DNA of 32,064 nucleotides from positions 1-32,064 of the forward strand of contig JAFURC010000015.1 of the NCBI GenBank assembly GCA_017472015.1, in the 5' to 3' direction. The stretch comes from Bacilli bacterium (lineage in GTDB: Bacteria > Bacillota_I > Bacilli_A > RF39 > UBA660). The notes beneath the pieces are model-generated. The model did no database searches, was not told where the DNA came from, and saw nothing but the letters and a program-made list of their open reading frames with translations. The first letter of the stretch is position 1; every line of letters starts with the position of its first letter. The position numbers were made by a program, and so were the translations under genes. This document shows positions 3,259 to 27,746 of this stretch, piece by piece.

Positions 3259-3722
3259 GCTTAGTAAGAATAATACTTCATTTGAAAATTGCTTGACTAT
3301 AATATTTATTCAGTGGAATAATATTATAAGCGATGGACTCAATATTTATTCTTTAGAGAATTTATATTTTAGTCTTTATAAATTAATTGATTTTAATTTA
3401 TATTTATAGTTTTTTAACTATTTGTGATAATTGATTTTATCATTTGGTGCCTTTTTGAGTAAGGGTTTTAGTATTATTAATTTAATACTTTGTAGCAATT
3501 AGAATGAATATTATCAGGTTAGAAAAGTTATATTAGGAATATAACCATTATCGCCACTAAGTAGGACAATTGTTTTGAGAGGAGAAACTCAAAGATAAGT
3601 AAGTTGTAGTAAATACTGATAATATTTATTAAATATTTATATTATCTAAAAAATAATATAAATTGTACGACTTTTTTCTAAACTCAATGTAAATAGTTTT
3701 ATCAGAACTATTTATTTTTTTA
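3259..3722 (+). ncRNA. Candidate ~460-nt structured noncoding RNA, family unknown
   Basis: This stretch lies between its own promoter and its own terminator and holds no ORF with an SD. It has strong internal pairing. A hairpin at 3298-3328 has a 13-bp stem with one bulged T and an AGTG loop. A perfect 11-bp long-range stem joins 3507-3517 with 3616-3626. Inside that domain are an 8-bp stem with an AGG loop (3527-3545) and a short TTGAG/CTCAA hairpin. I looked for the conserved cores of RNase P RNA and tmRNA and saw neither. It could be a new family, a large accessory RNA, or a known RNA too diverged to recognise by eye. The confidence is in the transcript, not the function. Confidence 0.6.
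3691..3722 (+). terminator. Terminator of the orphan RNA
   Basis: AAATAGTT (3691-3698) pairs perfectly with AACTATTT (3706-3713) around loop TTATCAG, followed by ATTTTTTTA. It closes the 3259 transcript before sigK. Confidence 0.8.
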
Positions 3723-12954: not shown

Positions 12955-13701
12955 ATGAAAATAGTAGTTATAATTATAATATGTTTATTAATATTATTTT
13001 GTTTAAATAGATTAATAATTTTTAAATTAAAAAAAGATATAATATATAAAAAATTAAAAGAATTAAATCGATTTTATTTCTTTTATAATACACCTAAAAA
13101 GATTGTAATAGAAGAATTAGTAAATAGTAAGAAAAGTCTTTTAAAATATAATTTTCAAGAAAAAGTTTTATCTTTAATTAATAATAATCAAGATAATTTA
13201 TTAATTTATATTCAAGATATTTATCATAATAAAAAGTATTTAAAAGAGTATAATAAAGAATATTTAAGTATTTTAAATAGTATGAATTATAATAAAATAA
13301 AAAAATATTATTTAAAGAAATTATTAAATAATATTAAATTAAAACCAAGAATTAGTTTTTCTTTAAAAATTAAAGTTATTTATAAAAATTATAAAGTTTA
13401 TAAAATATATAAATATGATGATTTACTTTTATTAGTTAAGAAGTTAAAAGATGTAAAACTAAGAAAAGAGTTAAAAAGAAAATTTATGAAAATGGAAAGA
13501 AATAAAATGTCTTTAGGACTTCGTTATGATGTTTTAAAAAGAGATAATTTTAAGTGTTGTGTATGTGGTTATGGTTCTTTAGATAATGTTAAACTTCATG
13601 TTGATCATATTATTCCGGTATCTCGTGGTGGTAAAACAAAGTTAGATAATTTACAAACCTTATGCAATAGATGTAATTTAGGAAAAAGTGATAAAGTATA
13701 A
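12955..13701 (+). CDS. Membrane-anchored HNH endonuclease
   Basis: A 248-aa protein with one N-terminal membrane helix (about 3-20), a long Lys/Tyr/Asn-rich middle with no recognised fold (about 21-180) and a C-terminal HNH domain. The HNH shows CCVCG, HVDHIIPVSRGGKTKLDNLQ and LCNRCNLGKS, so the two Cys pairs for structural zinc and the metal-binding His are present. The membrane anchor is unusual for HNH nucleases and suggests action at the envelope, for example on incoming DNA; that is inference. The ATG has no SD; TATTAT (12943-12948) ends 6 nt upstream, so the message may be leaderless. The middle region is extremely AT-rich. Confidence 0.85.
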   Translation: MKIVVIIIICLLILFCLNRLIIFKLKKDIIYKKLKELNRFYFFYNTPKKIVIEELVNSKKSLLKYNFQEKVLSLINNNQDNLLIYIQDIYHNKKYLKEYNKEYLSILNSMNYNKIKKYYLKKLLNNIKLKPRISFSLKIKVIYKNYKVYKIYKYDDLLLLVKKLKDVKLRKELKRKFMKMERNKMSLGLRYDVLKRDNFKCCVCGYGSLDNVKLHVDHIIPVSRGGKTKLDNLQTLCNRCNLGKSDKV

Positions 13702-13725
13702 TGAATTAATGCATATATATGTAAA

Positions 13726-13754
13726 AGTAACATATAATATTATTGTATGTAACT
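13726..13754 (+). repeat. 29-bp imperfect palindrome
   Basis: The segment is close to its own reverse complement, with outer arms AGTAACATA and TATGTAACT. No T run follows on either strand. It lies between the HNH gene and the toxin-antitoxin promoter and could be an operator or an old terminator. Confidence 0.4.
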
Positions 13755-13781
13755 AAAACATTATGTATTGTAGTTATTTTG

Positions 13782-13819
13782 TTGACAATATAATATTTTT
13801 GTGCTACAATTGATATTGT
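13782..13819 (+). promoter_or_regulatory. Promoter and possible operator of toxin-antitoxin module 1
   Basis: TTGACA (13782-13787), 17 bases, TACAAT (13805-13810). An inverted pair ACAATAT (13785-13791) and ATATTGT (13813-13819) brackets the promoter, where a RelB-type antitoxin could bind its own operator. The promoter is clear; the operator is a guess. Confidence 0.7.
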
Positions 13820-13836
13820 GAAAAGAGGTGTTATGT

Positions 13837-14127
13837 ATGGAAAGTTTAACAAGTGCTGTTAATGTTCAAGTTGATATGCAGGATAAAGAAGTTGCAAATG
13901 GTATATTAAAAAAATTAGGTTTAAATATGAGTACATTTGTTAATATGGCAATTAAACAATTAATTTATAATGATGGACTTCCTTTTGAAGCGAAAATTCC
14001 TAGACCCAACAAAGAATTATTAGAATCTCTTCAAGAAGGAGAAATTATTTTACAAGAATTGAAAGAAGGAAAACGAAAAGGTTACTCTAATATGGAGGAC
14101 TTAATTAGTGCTTTAAATGAGGAGTAA
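13837..14127 (+). CDS. RelB/DinJ family antitoxin (module 1)
   Basis: A 96-aa antitoxin. The N-terminal ribbon-helix-helix half has the DinJ/RelB pattern (AVNVQVD, then GLNMSTFVNMAIKQ), which would dimerise and bind the operator. The C-terminal half (about 55-96) is a charged tail that would wrap the toxin. The start at 13837 follows AGAGGTG by 6-7 nt. The toxin gene follows after 3 bases. A close relative lies at 22783 in module 2, sharing LTSA-NVQVD, ILK-LGLNMSTF and the GLPFE and RKGY blocks. Confidence 0.9.
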   Translation: MESLTSAVNVQVDMQDKEVANGILKKLGLNMSTFVNMAIKQLIYNDGLPFEAKIPRPNKELLESLQEGEIILQELKEGKRKGYSNMEDLISALNEE

Positions 14128-14130
14128 TTT

Positions 14131-14418
14131 ATGCGCTATAAGGTTGATTTTACAATTAATTTTAAAAAACAACATAAAAAAATAAAAAAACAAGGGAAAA
14201 ATTTAAAAAAATTATATGAAATTATCAATAAATTGGCAAATGATGAAATACTTGAACAAAAATACAGAGATCATGATTTAATTGATGATAAGAAATTTAA
14301 AGATTGCCGTGAATGTCATATCGAACCAGATTGGTTATTAATATATAAAAAACAAGAAAATGAATTAGTATTATTATTGTTTGCAACAGGAAGTCATAGT
14401 GAATTATTTAATAAATAA
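14131..14418 (+). CDS. YafQ/RelE family toxin (module 1)
   Basis: A 95-aa RelE-superfamily mRNA interferase. The family signature is intact: KYRDHDLIDD, RECHIEPDWLLIY and a terminal LFATGSHSELF, which carry the basic and His residues used for ribosome-dependent mRNA cleavage in YafQ. It would cleave translated mRNA when the antitoxin is degraded. It is coupled to the antitoxin by a 3-base gap, with an SD (GAGGAG) inside the antitoxin's last codons. No truncation is seen, so it should be active. Confidence 0.92.
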   Translation: MRYKVDFTINFKKQHKKIKKQGKNLKKLYEIINKLANDEILEQKYRDHDLIDDKKFKDCRECHIEPDWLLIYKKQENELVLLLFATGSHSELFNK

Positions 14419-14540: not shown

Positions 14541-15845
14541 ATGAAATATTATTTAATTGGAATTAAAGGATCAGGTATGAGTGCTTTAGCATCACTTTTA
14601 TATGATCTTGGGAATACTGTTGTTGGATATGATGATAGTTTAGAATATAAATTTACCCTTGAAGGGCTTAAAAAACGTGGTATCGAAGTTTATCATGATG
14701 ATTCATTTATTCCTGATAGTGACTTTATTGTTTGTTATTCAAATGCTATAAACGAGAGTCATGAAGAAATAAAAAGGTTAAAAAAAATAAATTTAAAAAT
14801 GATTAGATATCAAGATTTAATTGGTAATTTAACTAAGATGTATGAAACTATTTCTGTAAGTGGAACTCATGGTAAAACAACCACAAGTTTAATGATATCT
14901 AGTATTTTAGATAAACATATGGGTTGTAATTACTTTGTTGGAGATGGACGAGGACATGGTAGTCAAGATAATAAATTATTTGTTCTTGAATCATGTGAAT
15001 ATAATAAGCATTTCTTATCGTATTATCCTAGTACTTTAGTAATTACGAATATTGAACTAGAGCATACAGAGTGTTATAAAGATTTAGATGATATTATTTT
15101 TAATTTTAATAAATTAGCAAGTCAAACTAGTAATAATTTAGTTTTATGTGGAGATGACTTGAATGTTAGAAAAATTAAATCAGATAAAAATATTTATTAT
15201 TATGGTTTTTCTGATTCTAATGATTTGGTTGCTAAAAACTTAAATTTAACAACTGAATTTAGTAGTTTTGATGTTTATTATAAAGGAGAGTATTTTGATC
15301 ACTTTGATTTAAAATTATTTGGTAATCATATGATTCTCGATAGTCTTGCAAGTATCATGGTATCTATTTTATATAATGCACCTAAAGAAATAATTAAAGA
15401 AACTTTAAATAATTTTAAAGGAGCAACTAGAAGATTTAGTGAAACGAAAATAAATAATACGATTATAGTTGATGATTATGCTCATCATCCAACCGAAATT
15501 GAAGCCACTTTAAATAGTGCTCGTCAAAAATATCCAAATAAAAAAATAATTGGAGTATTCTTACCAAATACTTATTCAAGAACTAAGGATTTCATGGACG
15601 ACTTTGCCAGAGTTTTAAGTAATTTTGATTATTCATATATTATGGATATCAAATGTGATCGAGAAGATCCTAAAGACTACCCAGGTGTTTCAAGTGATAC
15701 TTTAATAGAAAAAACAAATAATAGTAGTAAACTTAGTAATGAAACAATTAATAAACTTTTAAATCATCAAGACAATGTTATTTGTTTTATGAGTTGTGCT
15801 AACATTAATCCAATAATAGAAGAGTTTAAGAATATTTTAAACTAA
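14541..15845 (+). CDS. murC: UDP-N-acetylmuramate-L-alanine ligase (MurC)
   Basis: MurC joins L-alanine to UDP-MurNAc using ATP, the first peptide step of peptidoglycan synthesis, in the cytoplasm. The protein (434 aa, usual 430-490) has the N-terminal nucleotide-binding GIKGSGMSALA, the Mur ligase ATP motif SVSGTHGKTTT (about 109-119), TNIELEHTE and a C-terminal domain beginning near GATRRF with DDYAHHPTEI, characteristic of MurC. AAAAAGGAG lies 8 nt before the ATG. Its presence shows that the cell makes a wall, unlike true Mollicutes. Confidence 0.95.
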   Translation: MKYYLIGIKGSGMSALASLLYDLGNTVVGYDDSLEYKFTLEGLKKRGIEVYHDDSFIPDSDFIVCYSNAINESHEEIKRLKKINLKMIRYQDLIGNLTKMYETISVSGTHGKTTTSLMISSILDKHMGCNYFVGDGRGHGSQDNKLFVLESCEYNKHFLSYYPSTLVITNIELEHTECYKDLDDIIFNFNKLASQTSNNLVLCGDDLNVRKIKSDKNIYYYGFSDSNDLVAKNLNLTTEFSSFDVYYKGEYFDHFDLKLFGNHMILDSLASIMVSILYNAPKEIIKETLNNFKGATRRFSETKINNTIIVDDYAHHPTEIEATLNSARQKYPNKKIIGVFLPNTYSRTKDFMDDFARVLSNFDYSYIMDIKCDREDPKDYPGVSSDTLIEKTNNSSKLSNETINKLLNHQDNVICFMSCANINPIIEEFKNILN

Positions 15846-21057: not shown

Positions 21058-21062
21058 TAAGA

Positions 21063-21308
21063 TGTCTAGATAATTTGATACATTGTAAGTATAAATCCTA
21101 CATTGAATTAGATACGGGAATCCCGATCAATAGTCGGTGTTGAATGCTTGAGTGTGAGTTCTTAAGAATCCTAAAGGCTAGTAAGGATACCCACGTGTGA
21201 AAAACCACGGGTTTAATTCCATCAATGGTCGGTCATCTGGATTTAATATGTAAAGTAAGAAATAGGTTATTTTGACTTTGTTTGTCGAATCTATTTCTTT
21301 TTCTTTTT
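21063..21308 (+). ncRNA. Stand-alone structured RNA, ~245 nt including terminator
   Basis: The transcript is bounded by its own promoter and terminator and has no ORF. Its body is far richer in G and C than its surroundings (GATACGGGAATCCCG, GGATACCCACG, CCACGGG), as in functional RNAs of AT-rich genomes. The ends pair: TCTAGAT (21065-21071) with ATCTGGA (21235-21241). Inner pairings include CATTGA (21101-21106) with TCAATG (21222-21227), CGGG-AAT-CCCG, and CCGATC with GGTCGG. The element ATCAAT-n-GTCGGT occurs twice (near 21126 and 21221). Size and layout fit 6S RNA or an orphan RNA such as the raiA motif, but I cannot confirm either by eye. It sits just before a sporulation sigma factor gene. 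Confidence 0.72.
21257..21308 (+). terminator. Terminator of the second orphan RNA
   Basis: AAGAAATAGGTT (21257-21268) pairs over 12 bp (one G·T) with AATCTATTTCTT (21288-21299), followed by TTTCTTTTT. Confidence 0.85.
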
Positions 21309-22018: not shown

Positions 22019-22678
22019 ATGCAAAATAAGCATAAGTTAACAAGAAATGAAAGTATCTTTTTAATTAAAAATAATTTAGATAGTGTTATTTATAATAGTT
22101 GTATATTAGAAGGGTTAAATGTAACATTTCCGGAAACTCAAACAATTTTAGATGGAATAAATGCTTTCAATCTTAAATTAGATGATATAACTTGTATTTT
22201 AAATTTACGCGATGCTTGGAGGGGAGTACTTAATAACTTAGATTCTGAGTTAAACCTTAATTATATTTGTTTAATTAATTCATATGTTTCCCGAAATGAA
22301 TCTTTAAAATGGAGAGTTTTAAGAGAAGGTAATGTAGGAATTTCAGGAACTGATTATAAACCAAGTATTCTGGTAAAAAGTGAAGTAGAAGAAGAACTTT
22401 CTAAAATATTTAGCATAAAAACACCAAATTTAAGAGCTATAAAATTAATGTTATATGGAGCAAGAAGTCAGTTGTTTTCTTGTGAAAATAAACGAACTAG
22501 TATGATAATTGCTAATAAAGTTATGATTGAAAATGGTGCAGGAATTATTACTGTACCTGAGGAGAATATTATAGAATTTAATAAACTTTTAACTGATTTC
22601 TATAATACCAATGATGATACGAAGATAATAAAATTTATTTATAATAACTGTATCTTTGGAATTGATTATAATAATTAA
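22019..22678 (+). CDS. Fic-like protein with degenerate catalytic motif
   Basis: A 219-aa protein with the Fic fold layout. Near the N-terminus SCILEG (about 28-33) fits the inhibitory helix motif (S/T)-x3-E-(G/N) of Fic AMP-transferases, and TFPETQTILDG follows, as in that family. The active-site loop, normally HPF-x-(D/E)-GN-(G/K)-R, reads QLFSCENKR here, keeping Phe, Asn, Lys and Arg but losing the catalytic His and the acidic residue. It is therefore probably a pseudoenzyme or has another activity. The ORF is intact with a GAGGTG SD, so it is not a plain pseudogene. Its last 44 bases occur again at 23436, beyond the toxin-antitoxin module. Confidence 0.75.
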   Translation: MQNKHKLTRNESIFLIKNNLDSVIYNSCILEGLNVTFPETQTILDGINAFNLKLDDITCILNLRDAWRGVLNNLDSELNLNYICLINSYVSRNESLKWRVLREGNVGISGTDYKPSILVKSEVEEELSKIFSIKTPNLRAIKLMLYGARSQLFSCENKRTSMIIANKVMIENGAGIITVPEENIIEFNKLLTDFYNTNDDTKIIKFIYNNCIFGIDYNN

Positions 22679-22680
22679 AA
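22635..22680 (+). repeat. 46-bp direct repeat, left copy (3' end of the fic-like gene)
   Basis: Identical over 46 bases to 23436-23481. It comprises the last 44 bases of the fic-like gene, including the stop codon, plus two further A. Confidence 0.95.
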
Positions 22681-22722
22681 CAAAAAAATGTTGTTATTTC
22701 ATTGATTTTTGTTGGGGTTTTG

Positions 22723-22751
22723 TTGACAAAACTCTATAAAATTGATATAAT
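22723..22751 (+). promoter_or_regulatory. Promoter of toxin-antitoxin module 2
   Basis: TTGACA (22723-22728), 17 bases, TATAAT (22746-22751): a full consensus. Confidence 0.85.
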
Positions 22752-22782
22752 TTATTTGAAAAAGGAAGAGGTGTTATGTTAT

Positions 22783-23079
22783 ATGGAAACGCTAACAAGT
22801 GCTATTAATGTTCAAGTAGATGCCAGAGATAAAGAAGAAGCAACAAACATATTAAAAGATTTAGGTCTTAATATGAGTACGTTTATAAATATGTCTATTA
22901 AACAAGTTATAAAAAGAGGAGGATTACCTTTTGAAGTAACAAATCCTAAACCAAGTGTTGAATTACTTGAAGCCTTAGAAGAAGGGGAAAAAATTATTCA
23001 AGAATTGGAAAATGGTCAAAGAAAAGGTTATCACAATGTAAGACAAATGTTTGAGGATATTTTAAATGAAAACGATTAG
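22783..23079 (+). CDS. RelB/DinJ family antitoxin (module 2)
   Basis: A 98-aa antitoxin with the same architecture as module 1: ribbon-helix-helix start (AINVQVD, GLNMSTFINMSIKQ) and charged C-terminal tail (ELLEALEEGEKIIQELENGQ). The ATG at 22783 matches the module 1 start; AGAGGTG lies 9 nt upstream, and earlier in-frame starts fall within the promoter. It overlaps the toxin gene by 14 bases. Conservation with module 1 is strong in the first 40 residues and weaker in the toxin-binding tail, so cross-binding between modules is uncertain. Confidence 0.9.
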   Translation: METLTSAINVQVDARDKEEATNILKDLGLNMSTFINMSIKQVIKRGGLPFEVTNPKPSVELLEALEEGEKIIQELENGQRKGYHNVRQMFEDILNEND

Positions 23080-23377
23080 CATAGAAAATACATTGTTAGA
23101 ATTAGATACTACTAATAAATTTGATAAACAATTAAAAAAAATTTTTAAGCAAGGAAAAGACCTTGAAAAATTAATTTCTGTTGTAGAAAAATTAGCTAAC
23201 AAAGGACAATTGGAACCTAAATATAAAGATCATCAACTAATTAATGATAAAACATACAAAGATTGTCGTGAATGCCATATTGAACCTGATTGGTTGCTAA
23301 TCTATAAATACCAAAATGATTCTTTAATACTAGTATTATTTGCAACTGGTACTCATTCTGAATTATTTGATAAATAA
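23066..23377 (+). CDS. YafQ/RelE family toxin (module 2)
   Basis: A 103-aa relative of the module 1 toxin with the same signature: KYKDHQLINDKTY, DCRECHIEPDWLLIY and LFATGTHSELF. The expected action is ribosome-dependent mRNA cleavage. The N-terminus is about 8 residues longer than in module 1 (MKTISIENTLLELDTTNKF), because the start lies inside the antitoxin gene. The residues typical of active YafQ appear intact. Confidence 0.92.
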   Translation: MKTISIENTLLELDTTNKFDKQLKKIFKQGKDLEKLISVVEKLANKGQLEPKYKDHQLINDKTYKDCRECHIEPDWLLIYKYQNDSLILVLFATGTHSELFDK

Positions 23378-23412
23378 GTTAAGACATAAATAAAATCTTG
23401 ACTTATTTTTTT
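23373..23412 (+). terminator. Terminator of toxin-antitoxin module 2
   Basis: AATAAGTTAAGA (23373-23384) pairs with TCTTGACTTATT (23396-23407), one T·G, followed by further T. It lies inside the 46-bp repeats, so the cassette carries its own promoter and terminator. Confidence 0.85.
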
Positions 23413-23435
23413 AGTTATGATAATAAAAGTAGTCA

Positions 23436-23481
23436 TTATTTATAATAACTGTATCTTTGGAATTGATTATAATAATTAAAA
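23436..23481 (+). repeat. 46-bp direct repeat, right copy
   Basis: Exact copy of 22635-22680. Here it is not part of any gene. The 755 bases between the copies hold only the toxin-antitoxin module. From 23482 to the promoter at 23649 the sequence is T-rich and I see nothing else in it. Confidence 0.95.
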
Positions 23482-23648
23482 TAGTAAATTTAATTTGAAA
23501 AAAATTTTTTTCCTATTTTTTTTAATTTATTTTTACTAATCTTTGAATTTGCATATTTAAATTATCTGAATTTTTTGAATTAAAGTTTAATTTTTTATAA
23601 AAATAGAAATTGGTTTAAAAATGTTAATAAAATGTAAATTTACAAAAT

Positions 23649-23676
23649 TTGACATTTTCTATTCTTTCGTTATAAT
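23649..23676 (+). promoter_or_regulatory. Promoter of the surface protein gene
   Basis: TTGACA (23649-23654), 16 bases, TATAAT (23671-23676). Start near 23683, giving a ~37-nt leader. Confidence 0.8.
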
Positions 23677-26700: not shown

Positions 26701-26785
26701 TATTTTAATGATAACTGGAATAAGTTTGATATTTTATGTTTTTAAAATAAATGGAGCTGAATGTGAAACAGAATATGTTAAATAA
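23720..26785 (+). CDS. Cell-surface adhesin: thioester domain plus SpaA/Cna-B repeats, sorting signal VPNTS
   Basis: A 1021-aa exported protein. It has a signal peptide (about 1-22), then a TQXA-type thioester domain in which Cys60 (VYCVEPG) and Gln114 (ATQALIW) could form an internal bond used for covalent attachment to host surfaces. From about 250 onward there are SpaA/Cna-B-like beta-sandwich domains, each ending in forms like GTYSIKEIE or GSYYLKEIE; several have the Lys and Glu positions used for isopeptide bonds. The last four form two pairs, a tandem duplication of about 610 bp. The C-terminus has VPNTS (978-982), a hydrophobic helix and a charged tail: a sortase signal differing from LPXTG. 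AAAGGAG is 6 nt before ATG 23720; ATG 23717 is possible. No sortase gene is in the window. Confidence 0.88.
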   Translation: MKKIFIFILCLITCLMLDVQASSKLNMEFQENIYYVRRGGGEYSSNILSFYTIDDKVVYCVEPGVLVTDFNYQEEIGLDNLNLSLETKELIGLIGYYGYEYPGHTTTRFRMATQALIWEVSTNHIVEFYTERYGYGNYIDVSYEKNIIMDLVNSHHIKPTFDGDTFNGYYNMTIASSDANNVLDSYEVLDDGGNSVKIKNNEITINPLKVGKSKIILKKKKYDNNPSILYIPSNGTSQKVAHLRVDIDELATINLNIQGAKVEVLKKDSDTLNNPIGDNKLGGAIFGIYDEDNNLIDKIETDNEGKVSKYLALGNYKLKEIEPSYGYLLNYKTYEFSLTKTDLVSEIKVYEEAIKKDITIKKVMDNETGILDYEPNITFDIYLKSTNKLIASKTTDQNGYLNIRLPYGIYIFKQRNTTEGYLKANDFEIEINENTKNIVQKVVVNKKIASKVKVQKVDRDTGENINLSGIKFKIKNLDTNQYVCQEVTYPNLKTICEFETGSDGSFTTPKGLFGNYQVEEVEQVIPGYNLNKQPIKFTISNKTEFQKNEFNDNIIVINFPNERIKGNLKINKLGEEVIIEDKITYNKIPLLGVKFNLYAKENIYLGNKLVFKKDELIDTLITNQEGIVSLDNLYQGSYYLKEIESDNNNLISNQLYYFDIPKNDQVVLNIENYLPKGSIELNKIDSITKEGISNTLIAIYKEDKLIYKGKTDKEGKITLTNLPIGTYSIKEIESNPDYIKSDSILEFTISEDQEIINLSLENEKIITGSIKINKRGEELVINKGITYNKVPLHGVKFNLYAKDDIYLGNKLIHEKDKLIETLITNEDGVASLDNLYLGSYYIEEMESSNGNLVNKERYYFDLTYKDQDTDILEIINLENYLPKGSIELNKIDSITKEGISNTLIAIYKKDKLIYEGKTDTNGKLNLTNLPIGTYSIKEIESNPDYIKSDSVLEFTISEDQEIINLSLENEKIVQVIEVPNTSKDKIDKLNVMSFILMITGISLIFYVFKINGAECETEYVK

Positions 26786-27746
26786 AAAAAGAAATTTAAA
26801 ACCAGGTGAGATGATTGAACTTTGCTATGACGAAGCATTTAAAATCATGTTTGCCAACACAGAACATTTAGAAATATTAACCGTATTACTATCAAGAATT
26901 CTAAAAATCGAATACAAAGATTTAGAAGGAAAAGTATCTTTATTACCACTTAAAAATTCCAATAAGACAATTGGTGAAAAGAAACAAGAAAAAGATGTTT
27001 TGGTATCTATTAAAACAAGAGATAAATATAAATTAGTTTTAGAAATTAATGTTAAAAAGAAATTTTATGAAAGTGTAACTGATAGAAATTTATATTATTC
27101 ATTTGAAGTTGCTGGAAGAAGTTTACCTGAGGGTGAAAGTTATTCTAATTTAGGAATTACATTATTAATCAATTTTAATACTTATTTTACGGATTTAGAA
27201 AATAAAAAAGTATTTGATGAATATTTACTAAGAAATGAAGAGGGAAATATTCTAAGTAAAAAATTTAAAGTTTTCAATATTAATATTGCTGAATGTCACA
27301 ATCTTTGGTATCATAATGAATATCAAGGGAAATTCGAATTATATGAAGAGGATTTAATGCTTTTATGTGCAGCTATGAAAGTATCAAAACAAGAAGATTT
27401 TAAAAAGATAATAGATTTAGTTCGAATAAAACCTGAAATTAAAGAATTAATGGAAGGAGTGGTATCTACCATGAATGAAAACGAAGAACTTGTAGGAAGT
27501 TACCTTGATTGGAAAGAAGAAAACGAGAAAATTAATCAAGCAATTATTGAAGAAGAAAAAGCTGAAAGTTTTAAAGAAGGTATCAAACAAGGAATAGAAC
27601 AAGGAAATGCAAATAAACAAAAAGAAATTGTTCTTAATATGTATAATAAAAATTTTAAATTAGAAGATATATTATCTATCACTAATTTAACTTTAGAAGA
27701 AGTTGAAACAATTATTAATACATTTAATAATGATACTAATAAATAG
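26751..27746 (+). CDS. Rpn/PD-(D/E)XK family nuclease (transposase-like)
   Basis: A 331-aa protein of the Rpn (recombination-promoting nuclease) group. CYDEAFKIMFAN near the N-terminus is typical, and EKDVLVSIKTRDKYKLVLEINV carries the Asp and Glu of the PD-(D/E)XK core, with Asn where the family usually has Gln. After the core come helical segments and a basic-acidic tail (KEGIKQGIEQG, then a NMYNKNFKLEDILSITNLTLEEVE helix pair) seen in many gut homologues. It overlaps the adhesin gene by 35 bases; GTG at 26763 has a GGAG 6 nt upstream and may be the true start. A terminator follows. Function unproven; possibly DNA mobility or phage defence. Confidence 0.85.
   Translation: MELNVKQNMLNKKRNLKPGEMIELCYDEAFKIMFANTEHLEILTVLLSRILKIEYKDLEGKVSLLPLKNSNKTIGEKKQEKDVLVSIKTRDKYKLVLEINVKKKFYESVTDRNLYYSFEVAGRSLPEGESYSNLGITLLINFNTYFTDLENKKVFDEYLLRNEEGNILSKKFKVFNINIAECHNLWYHNEYQGKFELYEEDLMLLCAAMKVSKQEDFKKIIDLVRIKPEIKELMEGVVSTMNENEELVGSYLDWKEENEKINQAIIEEEKAESFKEGIKQGIEQGNANKQKEIVLNMYNKNFKLEDILSITNLTLEEVETIINTFNNDTNK

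Follow-up and report, generated by a model that had tools for sequence, protein, structure and literature searches.

A RelB/DinJ-YafQ toxin-antitoxin cassette between 46-bp copies of a fic gene end in an uncultured Bacilli genome and its probable insertion with target duplication

The fic-like gene, the 46-bp repeat and the cassette

The window, i.e. the whole analysed stretch of 32,064 bp, is contig C46 of a 1.33-Mb metagenome assembly consisting of 49 contigs, and it was compared with 16 other genomes of the genus. It has a G+C content of 23% and contains, in this order, a 6S RNA, a sigma-factor gene, a fic-like gene, a small toxin-antitoxin cassette and a surface-protein gene, with the features around the cassette listed in Table 1. 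The RNA motif PGK (Rfam RF03040) was found above the gathering score at positions 3540-3629, and a gene of the PD-(D/E)XK "transposase" family (PDDEXK_2) at positions 26751-27746 overlaps the end of the surface-protein gene.

Table 1 Features of the fic-like gene and of the adjacent cassette (positions in the window)
Feature	Position	Strand	Remarks
Fic/DOC-like host gene	22019..22678	+	cassette sits at the 3' end of the gene; eight of nine homologues match Fic
Left repeat copy	22635..22680	+	last 44 nt of the fic-like ORF and 2 nt more; 100% identical to the right copy
Inserted DNA, 755 bp	22681..23435	+	lies between the repeat copies
Promoter, TTGACA-17-TATAAT with extended TG	22723..22751	+	12/12 consensus positions; sigma-70-type
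RelB/DinJ-family antitoxin, 98 aa	22783..23079	+	PF04221, E 6e-12; TIGR02384 above cut-off; DinJ structures
YafQ/RelE-family toxin, 103 aa	23066..23377	+	PF15738, E 2e-30; TIGR02385 above cut-off; YafQ structures, e.g. 4ml0
A+T-rich hairpin with T tract, probable cassette terminator	23372..23415	+	13-bp stem; RNA fold -10.2 kcal/mol, z -2.9
Right repeat copy	23436..23481	+	in no ORF; directly before the strong hairpin
Strong hairpin just after the right copy	23482..23538	+	RNA fold -13.6 kcal/mol, z -5.9

The two 46-nt copies lie at an offset of 801 bp and can be extended to an alignment of 53 nt with 94% identity, the longest exact direct repeat expected by chance being 17-20 nt according to 20 order-3 Markov simulations of the window. 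In a search of the window's own genome, which sampled stretches of it, the full 46-mer was present at these two places only, and the best other match within the genus was a chance 80% match in unrelated coding DNA of one relative (G006), so a dispersed repeat was rejected. Repeat comparison and the ORF list thus agree with the first-pass annotation, which had described two perfect copies, the left one being the fic 3' end and the right one lying outside genes; of the two circumstances which it had named as speaking against its reading, the repeat did not prove to be a dispersed element, and no relative was seen to carry both copies. The repeat codes for a C terminus that is conserved among Fic homologues and so is part of fic rather than of the cassette; it is target sequence specific to this site and no part of the element.

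The Pfam profile Fic (PF02661) is matched by eight of the nine homologues and not by the window's own copy, in which the Fic core motif is degenerate (FSCENKRTS at 22459-22500 vs the pattern FxDGNKR). As the motif is intact in close homologues (FWDGNKRTS), the fic gene of the window may be inactive. The strong hairpin following the right copy is probably the original fic terminator, in which case the ancestral order would have been fic with its last 46 bp present once, the hairpin and the surface-protein gene. No fic allele with a single copy of the 46 bp and no cassette was found among the relatives of the genus, where the close Fic homologues cannot serve as empty sites because they sit in other contexts, and it is for this reason that we infer the direction of the event in the window. 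The A+T-rich stretch 23480-23660 before the surface-protein gene has matches of about 70% over about 180 bp at many sites in the genus and may be a shared promoter region.

Between the copies, the genes coding for the antitoxin and the toxin are adjacent and overlap by 14 nt. The profile matches, the fully consensus promoter and the hairpin bear out the earlier description of this DNA as promoter, antitoxin, toxin and terminator; a simple terminator scan reported no terminator for the cassette, having missed the hairpin because its stem is A+T-rich. The cassette is accordingly assigned to the type II toxin-antitoxin modules as a small autonomous unit with a promoter and hairpin of its own, the toxin activity being predicted. 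It resembles the DinJ-YafQ system in the antitoxin and toxin families and in the overlapping gene order, although the toxin score of 74.9 is below the narrow YafQ cut-off of NCBI (87.25) and above the RelE/StbE cut-off. Likeness to other RelB-YafQ cassettes of the genus starts only near the promoter and ends at the toxin stop codon. The 755-bp insert codes for RelB and YafQ only, with no integrase, transposase or terminal IS found in it. A second RelB-YafQ pair with 70% DNA identity to the first is located at positions 13828-14418 of the window, with an HNH nuclease gene on one side and a murC-like gene on the other, and no long flanking repeat was detected around it.

The sigma-factor gene preceding fic is present in 17/17 genomes, and the 6S RNA upstream of it is detectable in 16 of the 17; in the window it lies at 21060-21247, where its detection required a separate search of this stretch, and the pair of RNA and gene is conserved across the genus. 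A fic gene occurs at this locus in two genomes only, namely in the window, downstream of the sigma-factor gene, and in G009, between the 6S RNA and the sigma-factor gene. As just these two genomes have fic there, the fic gene of the window is, like that of G009, a newcomer at its place, followed by the cassette as a second insertion; this fic gene has no detectable flanking repeat of its own.

Insertions of the same anatomy in relatives

Ten further insertions with the same anatomy were found, comprising six RelB-YafQ cassettes and four Fic genes, which makes eleven cases with the window. Relatives identified by toxin similarity have been deposited as uncultured Bacilli, Erysipelotrichaceae or Tenericutes. 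The repeats of these siblings are 38-78 bp long (38-78 bp for RelB-YafQ, 46-73 bp for Fic), derive from the 3' end or the terminator of the host gene or RNA, and are unrelated between loci: for ten loci the mean longest common stretch was 7.2 nt vs 7.0 nt for shuffled letters, so there is no shared core.

Two of the siblings are in the window's own genome. One is a fic gene on contig C22 with repeats of 52 bp (96% identity) containing a terminator and the mutL promoter; fic was found upstream of mutL in 0/15 relatives. The other is a RelB-YafQ cassette on contig C34, located between pflA and a DUF192-like gene, with repeats of 61 bp (90%) that correspond to the 3' part of the latter; in four relatives these two genes are close neighbours without a toxin. 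At this C34 site (locus L103), the present end of the DUF192-like protein is GDKLKVINKKK, and the stray copy codes for GDILEIEE, which is nearer to relatives such as GDILKIKN; the final codons of the gene seem to have been exchanged in this insertion.

The remaining RelB-YafQ siblings have a 51-bp repeat ending at the stop codon of a gene (G002:C87), a 38-bp repeat from the 3' end of an ABC-F gene (G003:C55, counted once as it is apparently the same contig as L165), a 48-bp repeat from a terminator (L196), a 54-bp, 100% identical repeat from a terminator directly behind the toxin stop codon (L214) and a 78-bp repeat from what is apparently a gene end (L220). The remaining Fic siblings are a gene that precedes a MazEF-like pair and has a perfect 46-bp copy of a terminator on either side (G035:C6), a gene between 73-bp copies of a tRNA-Arg 3' end and terminator (G077:C28) and the G009 gene, which is flanked by a 64-bp direct repeat of the 6S terminator region with 97% identity. 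For the G009 gene, empty sites with no fic between the 6S RNA and the sigma-factor gene are provided by the window and by every other relative in which this region could be seen. Insert-free relatives are thus available for three siblings (the fic genes of G009 and C22 and the C34 cassette), and none was found for the window's own cassette.

The strength of the association was measured for 94 YafQ loci as the score of the best direct repeat shared by the DNA upstream of the antitoxin and that just behind the toxin, with 1100 placements of the same geometry elsewhere within the same loci serving as the control. A score of at least 32 was obtained for 7/94 loci vs 0/1100 control placements, and a score of at least 18 for 11/94 vs 4/1100. 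The other 87 of the 94 loci have no strong flanking repeat, which may reflect age or another route of arrival; as the copies have diverged in several siblings, older cases were probably missed. A screen of stretches totalling 799 kb, taken from eleven genomes of the genus, gave only a handful of repeat pairs outside single genes, among them the fic/mutL case and the copies of about 390 bp around a small insert that are described below. Three weak pairs (L177, 25 bp; L150, 20 bp; L229, 28 bp) are suggestive and were left out of the count, as was a seemingly flanked fic gene (L307), the repeats of which contain similar short reading frames and may constitute a separate repeat family. Little tight flanking was seen at MazF loci.

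Several other repeat arrangements were observed. In G006:C22 (L025, L094), three RelB-YafQ units of about 62% identity follow one another in tandem every 800 bp or so; the outermost is partly decayed, and the array could be an old tandem amplification or the result of serial insertion. In G004:C7 (L126), copies of about 390 bp with 93% identity (13678-14064 and 15220-15557) surround a small insert, DUF1016-like by eye, as if this were an insertion with a much longer target duplication. At positions 42-209 of L077 (G000:C6), the 36-bp repeat GTTTTAATACCATTTAAAATGTCATAGAACTAAAAC is present in two copies 132 bp apart and looks like part of a CRISPR array.

Origin of the duplication

We consider it probable that the RelB/DinJ-YafQ module was inserted at the 3' end of fic with duplication of 46 bp of target sequence, so that the last fic codons now stand on both sides of the cassette and the gene has stayed intact. 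With ten further insertions of the same anatomy, the one in the window is evidently not an isolated accident. The reading offered in the first-pass annotation, namely entry at the gene end with duplication of the target and preservation of the gene in the manner of integrating elements, is upheld in its first part by the ten siblings, three of them with insert-free relatives, and is not upheld with regard to integration of the integrase type, given the lack of both an integrase and a shared core.

The latter point bears directly on site-specific integration, according to which the copies would be attL and attR and the integrase (an integron integrase, Xer or another tyrosine recombinase) would act in trans. 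Insertion at a gene 3' end and the att-like length of the repeat would suit such an event, as would the sibling Fic insert at the end of tRNA-Arg, the window itself containing no tRNA. However, besides the missing integrase gene and the absence of a core common to the insertions, the GTTRRRY box is absent from both strands of the 46-mer, which led to the rejection of an integron attC and, taken together with the rest, leaves this origin highly unlikely. The cassette is similar to the toxin-antitoxin cassettes of chromosomal integrons in being a single operon with its own promoter (PMC2654758) but differs from them in having no attC-like box in the repeat, no repeat in common with other cases, and in occurring as isolated insertions vs arrays.

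It is also quite unlikely that the right copy is the remnant of a second, tandem fic gene, with fic having been duplicated, the cassette placed between and the second gene deleted down to its last 46 bp. Fic genes have evidently moved around the locus, fic being found downstream of the sigma-factor gene in the window and upstream of it in G009, yet no fic sequence beyond the 46 bp precedes the right copy, and two unrelated events would have had to yield a repeat that falls within the length class seen at ten other insertions behind different genes. An artefact in which the second copy was made on joining contigs might be suspected in a metagenome assembly where the copies are identical and of k-mer-like length; the right copy, however, runs into a plausible fic terminator, and there are sibling cases with diverged copies (90-98% identity) from different assemblies, making an artefact barely credible.

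Insertion of the module with duplication of the target, the reading preferred here, has a known counterpart. Passages of PMC3874152, PMC3031569 and PMC1643837, citing Nobusato et al. 2000 and Furuta et al. 2010, describe insertion with long target duplication in the case of Helicobacter pylori restriction-modification genes, with duplications described as "in the order of 100 bp" (PMC3874152); the passages of PMC3874152 do not state that toxin-antitoxin modules insert in this way. The literature search, in which the two original papers were covered through papers citing them, returned no report of such an insertion for YafQ, and an earlier report is possible. By its anatomy, the insertion in the window matches this type, because it combines target repeats peculiar to the site, located like those of the siblings at gene or RNA 3' ends, with a single small operon and no integrase or transposase. 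As with restriction-modification insertions, the module has no transposase of its own, the direct repeats of the target are long and variable in length, insert-free relatives exist (here for three siblings, with none found for the window's own cassette) and the cargo is of the addiction-module type. Unlike them, the cargo here is a toxin-antitoxin pair, or Fic in siblings, with no DNA-cutting enzyme, the repeats are 38-78 bp vs lengths of the order of 100 bp, and the hosts are uncultured Bacilli and other Firmicutes.

As toxin-antitoxin and Fic modules have no DNA-cutting enzyme, the duplication cannot be made by a nuclease of the module, and host DNA repair or an enzyme acting in trans is indicated instead. 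We infer that host DNA repair formed the duplication. Two offset nicks about 50 nt apart could have been filled in with a captured fragment joined between them, or a replication fork could have switched template to the donor and returned upstream of the point of departure. The bias towards gene ends would arise by selection, because a duplication covering the stop codon spares the gene, so that such insertions would be kept. Rpn-type nucleases were rejected as the agent, since the RecA-independent transfer described for them in E. coli produced replacements of very large size rather than duplications (PMC4498929). Excision of the cassette between the copies is plausible; as proposed in the first-pass annotation, recombination would remove it, with a loss of 801 bp that leaves fic and the downstream hairpin, and addiction to the antitoxin would oppose such a loss. 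In E. coli, short direct repeats have been reported to undergo deletion with no known recombinase involved (PMC5426353).

Significance for the movement of addiction modules

Chromosomal toxin-antitoxin modules are patchily distributed among genomes, and how they arrive without a vehicle is an old open question. The recurrence of the same anatomy, each time with another duplicated sequence, at toxin-antitoxin and Fic genes of related gut bacteria suggests a general way for such modules to move without a mobility enzyme of their own. It is rather doubtful that a dedicated system acting in trans, unknown as yet, places small addiction modules, including RelB-YafQ, Fic and possibly further ones, at gene 3' ends and in terminators as cassettes of one operon each, with fairly uniform duplications of 40-80 bp; if it did exist, addiction modules would be mobile elements with no mobility gene of their own. 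The scar of about 50 bp left by single insertions shows exactly where they begin and end, how they are oriented and roughly how old they are, which makes the question of arrival testable across genomes.
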